Positions 52,467 through 55,351 of a DNA stretch of 64,000 nucleotides are shown one piece after another. The translations under genes and the position numbers were made by a program. The stretch's first letter is position 1. Every line of letters starts with the position of its first letter. The stretch spans positions 1-64,000 of the forward strand of contig NZ_VTWS01000006.1 in the NCBI RefSeq assembly GCF_008727875.1, read 5' to 3'. Source of the stretch: Larkinella humicola (GTDB lineage Bacteria; Bacteroidota; Bacteroidia; Cytophagales; Spirosomataceae). The notes below the pieces were generated by a model. It saw only the letters and a program-made list of their open reading frames with translations. It was not told the origin of the DNA and ran no database searches.

Positions 52467-52494
52467 GATTTTAGATACGGTTTTTAGTGAAGGG

Positions 52495-52532
52495 AGCCAC
52501 CGTGGTTTTTTAGGAACTGCGGTGGCTTTTTG
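52495..52532 (+). terminator. intrinsic terminator behind the ThuA fusion gene
   Basis: Arms AGCCACCG (52495-52502) and CGGTGGCT (52520-52527) pair around a 17-base loop and are followed by a T-run (TTTTT). It separates the periplasmic oxidation locus from the AT-rich gene. Confidence 0.78.
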
Positions 52533-52603
52533 GTTTACCAGCAGCAAAACGCCAAAAATATTTCATGGAATATTTTATCTTTACTAAAAAATAACAAATT
52601 CTA

Positions 52604-53992
52604 ATGAGCACAGATTTACTACAACTTCCAACTCGACATTTACTAGATAAAATCGGTGCGGGTAATCATAAACCTGGATCTGGTAGTGCAGCTGCTCTTA
52701 ATGGAATTTTAAGCTCTGAACTATTAGAGACTGTTATTGAACTTACGCTTGAAAGAGAAAAAACATATATACATTGTAAAACAGAGTTTGAAGCAATAAA
52801 AAACAAAATTATTAATATCATAGGGCCAAGATTAGAAGTATTGTTTGAAGAAGATTCTTTACAGTTTGATAAGACGATTCAAAAGAGAAAGGAACGAAAC
52901 AAAGAGAGAAATCAAAAAATAAAAAACGATCTTCAGGAAGAATCACTGCAAGAACTGAAAAGATCAACGGAAATTCCGATTGAAATTGCAAATCTTTGTA
53001 TCCAGCTCGCAAAATATTCCGTTGTAGTATTTGATAAAGGATTTAAATCAGCTAGGGGTGATTCAGGCGTAGCTTTAGGTAGTTCTCTTTCAGGTCTTTC
53101 AGGCTGTATTGCTATCATAAGCCTAAATCTACAATCGTTCCCAAAAAATGCTTGGACTAATTCAATTGAAATTCAAAAAAAGGAGCTAAAGAATGAGTTT
53201 AATAATCTCAGCAAAGAGAATGTTAGATTAATGGATACCCTTGATGAGGAAGCAGATATAAAGGGGGATTTTCTAGTAGAATTTACTGAAATTAGGAAAT
53301 CACTATTTGGAAAATCTAATGTTTCCCACACTGATATTGAAAATTTAGCAAGACGAATTCAAAATGCATTATGGGGTTATAAAGAACTAATATGGAGTGT
53401 TAACCCTCCAGATAATCTACTTGGCGTGCTGAAACCACAAAAAGTTATAGAGTTATTAAGATATGCATTTCACAAAGCACATACCTTAGGAGTTAATGAA
53501 CAGGGTGAAGAAATCGCTGGCATAATTAATAACGAGGATTATACTATTACAATCTCAGATATGTATAAGCCAGATGTTATTAAATTCACTACGGCTCATG
53601 AGCTTGGACATGCCTTGCTACATGACAAAATAGAACTTCACCGTGATTTACCATTAGATGGGTCGGACATAGAACGATATAGACCAATTGAAGAAATACA
53701 AGCAGATAAATTTGCAGCTGTATTTTTGATGCCCAAAAAGATAGTAGTCCAACTGTTTTATGAACGATTTCAAATTAAGAGGTTTACGATTAATGAGAAC
53801 ACTGCACGTTTACTTGATAGTACGGCTCATGAACTTCGCAAGAAGGTTAAAAACAAACGTGACCTTTCTCGAATGATTGCAAAGTGTGGATATTATAATT
53901 CTAGACCTTTTGATTCATTGTCAAAAATTTTTCAAGTTTCAATCGAAGCAATGGCTATTAGATTAGAGGAGCTAGAATTAATAGAATATTAA
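52604..53992 (+). CDS. cyclodeaminase-like domain fused to ImmA/IrrE-type zinc peptidase
   Basis: Protein of 462 aa in a gene much richer in A+T than all its neighbours. Residues about 1-205 match the formiminotransferase-cyclodeaminase C-terminal helical fold: KPGSGSAAALNGILSSELLE, a long charged helix pair, then IPIEIANLCIQLA and DSGVALGSSLSGLSGC. Residues about 290-400 are an ImmA/IrrE (COG2856) metallopeptidase with zinc site H332-E-L-G-H336 and a probable third ligand Glu364 in EIQAD. ImmA-type peptidases usually cleave a repressor or control a stress response; the cyclodeaminase part may sense a folate-like ligand or only scaffold. No HTH domain is present. Confidence 0.85.
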   Translation: MSTDLLQLPTRHLLDKIGAGNHKPGSGSAAALNGILSSELLETVIELTLEREKTYIHCKTEFEAIKNKIINIIGPRLEVLFEEDSLQFDKTIQKRKERNKERNQKIKNDLQEESLQELKRSTEIPIEIANLCIQLAKYSVVVFDKGFKSARGDSGVALGSSLSGLSGCIAIISLNLQSFPKNAWTNSIEIQKKELKNEFNNLSKENVRLMDTLDEEADIKGDFLVEFTEIRKSLFGKSNVSHTDIENLARRIQNALWGYKELIWSVNPPDNLLGVLKPQKVIELLRYAFHKAHTLGVNEQGEEIAGIINNEDYTITISDMYKPDVIKFTTAHELGHALLHDKIELHRDLPLDGSDIERYRPIEEIQADKFAAVFLMPKKIVVQLFYERFQIKRFTINENTARLLDSTAHELRKKVKNKRDLSRMIAKCGYYNSRPFDSLSKIFQVSIEAMAIRLEELELIEY

Positions 53993-54230
53993 TTCTAGAG
54001 AGACCCTTTGTCACTTGCGTTTCTATTCAAAGACTTTCTGTCCCTAACCAGTAATTGACCAATCTCCCCATTAAAACCGGCGGCTTCGGGCCAGAGACCG
54101 TATCGATGTAGTCCCAACGTACCACACGCAAGCAAAAACAGCATGCTACCGCCGTGGTGTAAGATTGCGGTAAGCTTATGGTAGCGAAACGTGTATTTTT
54201 TGGTTATTTTTGCTGAAAAGGAATAAAGAC

Positions 54231-54437
54231 ATGACCACCGACGTGCAGTATCAGACCGGAAAGATGGTCAAAGACCCGAGGGCCATGACCCCGCAGGAGC
54301 GGAGCCGCTGGCAAAAACAATGCGCTGAAAATGCGCGGGATTACCTGTTTTCCATTGGTCAGCCGCTGGTCTACAAGCGTCCGGACGGCCATGTGGTCGC
54401 TGAACACAAAGACGGCCGCATTCTGGTGATCCAATGA
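54231..54437 (+). CDS. small protein upstream of zeta-like kinase, candidate antitoxin
   Basis: Protein of 68 aa from ATG 54231, preceded by a purine-rich AAAAGGAATAAAGAC. It reads TDVQYQTGKMVKDPRAM, then a helix (TPQERSRWQKQCAENARDYL) and a beta end (AEHKDGRILVIQ). The kinase gene starts four bases before its stop (ATGA overlap), so the two are translated as a unit. The position and size fit an antitoxin. No HTH is seen, and no family is recognised. Confidence 0.72.
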   Translation: MTTDVQYQTGKMVKDPRAMTPQERSRWQKQCAENARDYLFSIGQPLVYKRPDGHVVAEHKDGRILVIQ

Positions 54438-54982
54438 CAATTTATCTGATCGCCGGCCCTCCCGGCATCGGCAAGAGTACCAACGCCCGGGAATTGATCC
54501 CGGAAGGCGTTCCAATCGTTGATCAGGATCTAGCTGCCTACCAATACAAAAAAAGAGGATTCACCGATTATCAGGACATTGCATCCCTGACAACCCATCA
54601 AAAAATCCGGGAATGCTTGTTTAATAAGGAAGATTTCGCCCTGGAATTGAATTTAGGGTTTCCCTCGCATTACGCTTATCTAAAGTCGATTGCCAACTTC
54701 GACCGGTCGAACCAGGTAAACCTGTTGCTGTTTTTTACGGACGATCTTCATCTCTGTATCAACCGGGCGAAAGCCCGGTTTTTGAACGGTGGACACGAAG
54801 TTAAAACCGAGGTCATTGAAGAAATGTATGTCAGTACCATGCCACTGTTTGAAGAGAATAAATCGCTGTTTCAGCAAGTGCGCCTGGTGGACGTTTCATA
54901 TACAGAAATCATCGAACTGACCAGAGAAAGCAGCATTTTACCGGATTGGGTGATAAAAAATAATCTACAGATTTATTTATAA
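54434..54982 (+). CDS. zeta-toxin-like P-loop kinase
   Basis: Protein of 182 aa with Walker A GPPGIGKST at residues 8-16 and the zeta-like VDQDL with its Asp after strand 2. Later segments ELNLGFPSHYAYLKSI and RAKARFLNGGHEV match the substrate region and the Arg lid of the zeta/AAA_33 kinases. Zeta toxins phosphorylate UDP-GlcNAc and block cell-wall synthesis; whether this one has that substrate is unknown. The overlap with the upstream small gene supports a toxin-antitoxin pair. It is shorter than classical zeta toxins (about 270 aa). Confidence 0.8.
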   Translation: MTIYLIAGPPGIGKSTNARELIPEGVPIVDQDLAAYQYKKRGFTDYQDIASLTTHQKIRECLFNKEDFALELNLGFPSHYAYLKSIANFDRSNQVNLLLFFTDDLHLCINRAKARFLNGGHEVKTEVIEEMYVSTMPLFEENKSLFQQVRLVDVSYTEIIELTRESSILPDWVIKNNLQIYL

Positions 54983-55087
54983 TCGAGACCCAGAATATAG
55001 CTCTTTTTGGTTGTTGCTTCTGCTTGCGTGGTTGCGGGACAAAAGGCCGATGATGAGGCCTAAATCGCCCCTTTACAATACACTGAG

Positions 55088-55351
55088 ATGGAAAAAACGA
55101 AAATTGATCTCACTGCGGAACTGGAAGAAATCAAGCGAGGCCAGCAACAAACGCTGGATTTTCTGAAATCGCACGGCCAGGAACTGGATCTGGGCGAATG
55201 GCTGTCGGTGCGGGACTACGCCAAAAAATACGGTGTTTCGATTCAGGTGGTGGTCAACTGGATCAACCGGGGTATTATTCCGGCTGACTGCGTGGAAGAC
55301 CTGCTGATGTTCAACAACATTCGCATGGTTCAGGACAAGGTGTATAAATGA
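55088..55351 (+). CDS. excisionase-like HTH protein
   Basis: Protein of 87 aa with a MerR/excisionase-type helix-turn-helix in its second half: LSVRDYAKKYGVSIQVVVNW, then INRGIIPADCV. The N-terminal 30 residues form a charged helix. Such proteins bind DNA and are often found beside mobile elements or toxin-antitoxin genes, but no integrase is in the window. It sits about 100 bases after the kinase gene and may regulate the islet. Confidence 0.78.
   Translation: MEKTKIDLTAELEEIKRGQQQTLDFLKSHGQELDLGEWLSVRDYAKKYGVSIQVVVNWINRGIIPADCVEDLLMFNNIRMVQDKVYK

Follow-up and report, generated by a model that had tools for sequence, protein, structure and literature searches.

What is the role of a protein that carries the fold of a one-carbon metabolism enzyme in one half and an ImmA/IrrE-type zinc peptidase in the other? 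This question is raised by an open reading frame (ORF) at positions 52604-53992 (forward strand) of a 64,000-nucleotide stretch of the Larkinella humicola genome (contig NZ_VTWS01000006.1, positions 1 to 64,000; hereafter the window), whose 462-aa product combines, according to the ORF list and Pfam, an FTCD_C half with a Peptidase_M78 (ImmA/IrrE) half. Our answer is a tentative one: the fusion protein may act on its own as a protease in defence or stress, spread by horizontal transfer and gated by a ligand or by a change of oligomer. The gene and its parts are as follows:

52604..53992, forward strand: FTCD_C-M78 fusion gene (ORF call, Pfam, seven other intact homologues)
52634..53170, forward strand: FTCD_C-type helical domain, residues 11-189
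53303..53989, forward strand: CapP/PprI-like zinc peptidase with a helix-turn-helix (HTH)-like tail, residues 234-462
53597..53611, forward strand: HELGH zinc/catalytic motif, residues 332-336, identical in 8/8 intact members

Domain architecture

Both halves score above the gathering cut-offs of their Pfam profiles (FTCD_C, PF04961: residues 11-189, 88.6 bits, cut-off 24.5; Peptidase_M78, PF06114: residues 312-391, 39 bits, cut-off 22), in agreement with the original prediction, made from the DNA letters and their translations, that a cyclodeaminase fold is joined here to an ImmA/IrrE peptidase. The top PADLOC match of the protein is capP (E-value 3.4e-16), with RmrA next. A search for the same architecture across genomes, which had been proposed as a check, returned seven further intact members; since these full-length homologues with both domains come from seven other genomes, the frame is real, and a sequencing error joining two genes is ruled out. 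The gene had also been described as AT-rich among GC-richer neighbours, and indeed its GC content is 33.6% (vs 52.8% across the window), its GC content at third codon positions (GC3) is 22% (vs 72% in the upstream gene), and only 2 of 627 overlapping 1389-base segments of the window, starting at 52601 and 52701 and both lying on the fusion gene, are equally AT-rich. Comparison with three close homologues gave pN (nonsynonymous) values of 0.17-0.28 and pS (synonymous) values of 0.69-0.83 across all three segments, therefore both halves are under purifying selection.

The FTCD_C half

Judged by its sequence, the FTCD_C half is a distinct subfamily, which has lost invariant residues of the canonical proteins and gained invariants of its own. 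The alignment and tree comprised 41 canonical homologues and the fused members, with the gene of genome G766 included and the duplicate L049 and the broken genes L066 and L067 left out. Six residues found in 41/41 canonical homologues (P24, G25, G27, D84, P125, N175) are retained in 8/8 members, and D153 (41/41) is retained in seven and replaced by E in Chitinophagaceae BSSC1. Others are exchanged: G26 of the PGGG motif (41/41) is S in 8/8 members, N171, the first N of NVxIN (41/41), is I in 8/8, M43 (41/41) is T in seven members and N in one, and N46 (40/41) is E, D or S in seven and retained in Kordia. Thus, the PGGGS of FchA and of the FTCD cyclodeaminase domain (7vg4, 1o5h, 1tt9) reads PGSGS in the fusion members, which, unlike these enzymes, are peptidase-fused. 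In the tree, the longest internal branch (2.08) leads to a separate clade (support 99) of the fused proteins and a solo relative from genome G081; the fused proteins alone have a support of 76. The residues invariant in 8/8 members are HKPGSGS (22-28), D84, QFD (87-89), R95, R98, SARG (149-152) and N175; the conservation of HKPGSGS, QFD, SARG and N175 despite a pairwise identity of 40-84% between the domains suggests a specific site.

The equivalog profile for the FchA methenyl-tetrahydrofolate cyclohydrolase (NF045657) gives the protein 61.4 bits, against a cut-off of 275. An ordinary metabolic FTCD_C protein is ruled out as the identity of this half by the loss of the motifs, the separate clade and this sub-cut-off score; no second FTCD_C match was found in the genome of L. 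humicola itself.

Solo FTCD_C genes of the same subfamily were also observed. One of them is intact (L027:9064-9798, 245 aa, 42% identity to the window domain) and has Fic and MazF-like genes close by, as read by eye. Another is broken (L066:7577-8170), and its surroundings are Lamassu-like, with a nearby ABC-type ATPase (L066:9400-11788) matching LmuB with an E-value of 1.1e-41.

The peptidase half

The HELGH motif at residues 332-336 and the EIQAD motif that had been pointed out are both present, the latter as E364-I-Q-A-D368 downstream of the former; H332, E333, H336 and E364 are identical in 8/8 intact members, and E364 is presumably the third zinc ligand, a role known from the family. The structural nearest neighbour of the predicted model of residues 234-462 is CapP, a protease that controls CBASS (cyclic oligonucleotide-based antiphage signalling), where it works with CapH as in other immune operons, and with which the fusion protein shares the peptidase fold. 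The C-terminus of the model aligns with residue 185 of CapP (chain of 278) and residue 180 of PprI, with the HTH ending at 176. According to the model and the alignment, the C-terminal GAF-like sensor of PprI/IrrE of Deinococcus begins where the fusion protein stops; the C-terminal sensor part of CapP is not present either, and the fusion protein has the N-terminal FTCD_C domain instead. The position of Arg85, with which PprI binds single-stranded DNA, is occupied by V, I or T in 8/8 members. Because the chain ends at the start of the sensor and Arg85 is absent from all eight members, the FTCD_C domain apparently replaces the input of a CapP/PprI-type protease. That input, for both PprI and CapP, is reported to be single-stranded DNA.

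Distribution of the family

The FTCD_C-M78 fusion is rare and patchy among the genomes searched: the family comprises at least eight intact genes (the window's included) and one broken gene, all from Bacteroidota. An alignment-based scan of genome contigs identified six full-length members with 39-69% identity (in the Bacteroidia metagenome-assembled genome (MAG) Prado080, Rhodocytophaga aerolata, the Flavobacteriales MAG MS006, Kordia algicida, Chitinophagaceae BSSC1 and Flavobacterium terrigena) and one M78-only protein. These counts are lower bounds, as the scan missed the genes of G435 and G766; a single-protein query scan of genome contigs returned no member. Among 395 genomes of the window's own class, full-length matches occur in four (its own included), with the FTCD_C-only relative in G081; the 241 genomes of its order hold two carriers, its own genome and G1167. 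There are two carriers among the 244 genomes of the class of G435 (the gene is intact in G766 and split into two frames in G435), and one, G300 itself, among the 248 genomes of the order of G300. Phyla beyond Bacteroidota were covered only by the contig and virus pattern scans. Plasmids and phages gave no tblastn match at 1e-5, and two scans of IMG/VR gave none with patterns so narrow that this absence is weak; an origin as a phage or plasmid gene is therefore unsupported.

Genomic location

The features around the fusion gene are the following:

52496..52531, forward strand: terminator-like hairpin (GCCACCG...CGGTGGC and a T run) behind the upstream gene, at the left edge of the slot; read by eye, unlisted in the hairpin scan
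52532..55022, no strand: variable cargo slot, filled with different genes, or with none, in other genomes of the genus
54210..54982, forward strand: 75-aa ORF and overlapping P-loop kinase, a candidate toxin-antitoxin (TA) pair inside the slot

Of seven other genomes of the genus, six cease to be homologous to the window at 52527-52532 and the seventh at 52467; the homology restarts at or beyond 55023. In G735, the corresponding slot is taken up by one gene (705 aa, 27% GC), in G731 by two (30-33% GC, one with DUF6615) and in G732 by one again (377 aa, 29% GC); G733 and G734 have short slots without a comparable gene, and in G730 and G737 the divergence spans a longer stretch. Since the slot carries other genes or none in the same genus, the fusion gene is exchangeable, horizontally moved cargo, which bears out the transfer originally proposed from its composition.

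As to the alternative cargo, the 705-aa slot gene with 27% GC (L080:8815-10929) encodes, by eye, a PIN-like part and C-terminal membrane helices and has no Pfam or PADLOC match. At L081:1289-2763 there are two AT-rich slot genes, the second with DUF6615 (E-value 5.1e-13).

The original prediction also placed a candidate TA pair next to the fusion gene. The ORFs 54210-54437 and 54434-54982 do overlap by 4 bases, but the case for a TA pair is weak: the first (75 aa) has no Pfam match and the second, the kinase, matches AAA_33 with an E-value of 1.3e-4, under the Pfam cut-off. At 55088 lies an HTH_17-like gene that is part of the genus background, as it adjoins other cargo in relatives too.

Genomic neighborhoods of the nine loci

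Two sets of ORFs were analysed with PADLOC: 108 neighbours of 110 aa or more, no further than 8 kb from the nine loci, and 146 control ORFs (out of 147, a very long one being left aside) from 12 regions picked arbitrarily on the same contigs in six genomes. Catalogued defence genes were found within 8 kb at five of the nine loci (Prado080: Ppl-like PHP-ATPase; F. terrigena: PDC-M49A; Rhodocytophaga: AbiEi and a Type IIG restriction-modification (RM) system; BSSC1: Type I RM; G435: HamB-type (Hachiman-type) helicase), and PrrC and Cas12f-type matches also appear among the neighbours (in the best 25 of 119 matching families). The 12 control regions contain none of these catalogued defence classes, their matches being confined to RtcR-like, PDC-S31, 2OG and Csa3 (7 families). 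A scan for TA toxins, which covered the loci only, revealed PemK (MS006) and PIN (G766, where the contig of only 5.6 kb leaves the neighborhood incomplete).

An all-vs-all comparison of neighbours of 60 aa or more, up to 6 kb away from the nine loci, detected two related pairs only, the PHP-ATPases of Prado080 and F. terrigena and the HTH proteins of BSSC1 and F. terrigena. Neither involves the window, and a functional link of the fusion gene to its kinase pair is not borne out. XRE-type HTH (HTH_3) genes lie within 3.4 kb at four of the nine loci, with varying position and strand. Because only two neighbour pairs are related and the HTH layout varies, no fixed partner gene was found travelling with the fusion gene. 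In contrast to CapP, the window locus lacks an adjacent capH and the immune operon layout. A CBASS operon (cyclase, E1-E2, JAB, SAVED-peptidase effector) was observed in a Chitinophagaceae MAG (L035:3751-10423), with genes for an HTH protein and a CapP-like protein next to it.

Functional prediction

The domain arrangement favours a sensor or scaffold coupled to a protease. In the explanation we tentatively prefer, the output would be the C-terminal zinc peptidase of CapP/PprI type, which has the HTH-like tail but no C-terminal GAF-like sensor, and the input would be the repurposed N-terminal FTCD_C domain. The trigger that opens or orients the peptidase may be a change of oligomer or the binding of a small molecule linked to phage or metabolic stress, possibly an anion resembling a folate or nucleotide; the peptidase would then cut a target encoded elsewhere, probably a host or phage protein, leading to growth arrest or a block of the phage. 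The original idea of a ligand-sensing or scaffold domain controlling a defence or stress protease thus agrees with the architecture and with the defence-type surroundings of several relatives, as compared with the controls; the gating itself is what we infer. Several observations weigh against this explanation. The control regions were not drawn as a matched random sample, and the candidate defence family PDC-S31 is matched by one or two of their ORFs; no PADLOC or TA neighbour was identified at the Kordia locus, and the window's own neighbours offer only the weak TA candidate. Regulators and mobile-element genes are typical of defence islands too. Residues 1-30, which contain the FTCD_C motif loop, are modelled with low confidence (pLDDT block means 48-66), and the XRE-type HTH genes near four of the nine loci would equally fit a regulator that cleaves a repressor.

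Such a CapP/ImmA-like regulator, in which stress would cause the protease to cut an XRE-type repressor (encoded nearby or elsewhere) of a defence operon or mobile element, is the leading competitor, although we regard it as unlikely. The HTH genes at the four loci therefore shift a slight weight to it from the explanation preferred above; however, of these genes, variable in position and strand, only those of BSSC1 and F. terrigena match each other, and the HTH_17-like gene of the window is genus background. Rather less likely is a special form in which one protein serves as a metabolite-gated immune or stress protease: the one-carbon enzyme fold would be the receptor of an infection signal resembling a folate or nucleotide, and would switch on the CapP-type peptidase; we know of no protease switch reading the folate or one-carbon pool. 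We are a little more doubtful still that FTCD_C is a mere oligomerisation scaffold grouping the peptidases without a ligand: FTCD is octameric in 1tt9 (entry title), and an interface would be compatible with the low pLDDT that the N-terminal loop has in the monomer model, but the identity of HKPGSGS, QFD, SARG and N175 in all members suggests a specific site. It is improbable that FTCD_C is an effector acting on methenyl- or formimino-tetrahydrofolate, which would drain one-carbon pools (nucleotide starvation) and be restrained or released by the protease, given the FchA score of 61 bits and the disappearance of G26 and N171 from all eight members. Least probable of all is a RosmerTA-like antitoxin, the peptidase half of which would neutralise a separately encoded toxin. 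The peptidase half does match RmrA in PADLOC (E-value 1.5e-11), and RmrA and spr1629-type HTH-M78 proteins resemble it in having an M78 domain in a defence context; ImmA-domain proteins serve as antitoxins in RosmerTA, according to an excerpt of PMC10440598. However, RmrA has an N-terminal XRE HTH where the fusion protein has FTCD_C, and no common toxin neighbour was found across the nine loci, though RosmerTA toxins are diverse.

Implications

In the open-licence literature, no title among the matches listed concerns an FTCD_C-M78 or IrrE-cyclodeaminase join, no paper pairs the Pfam names or accessions of both domains, and the word "cyclodeaminase" is absent from the main text of PMC2701414. 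With eight intact genes found and clear catalytic and candidate-site residues, FTCD_C-M78 is a small, testable family. M78 proteases are switches, and their input part sets what they respond to. If our explanation is true, a folate-enzyme domain as the input would mean that proteases of immunity or stress can also be made to answer other signals, perhaps metabolite pools.
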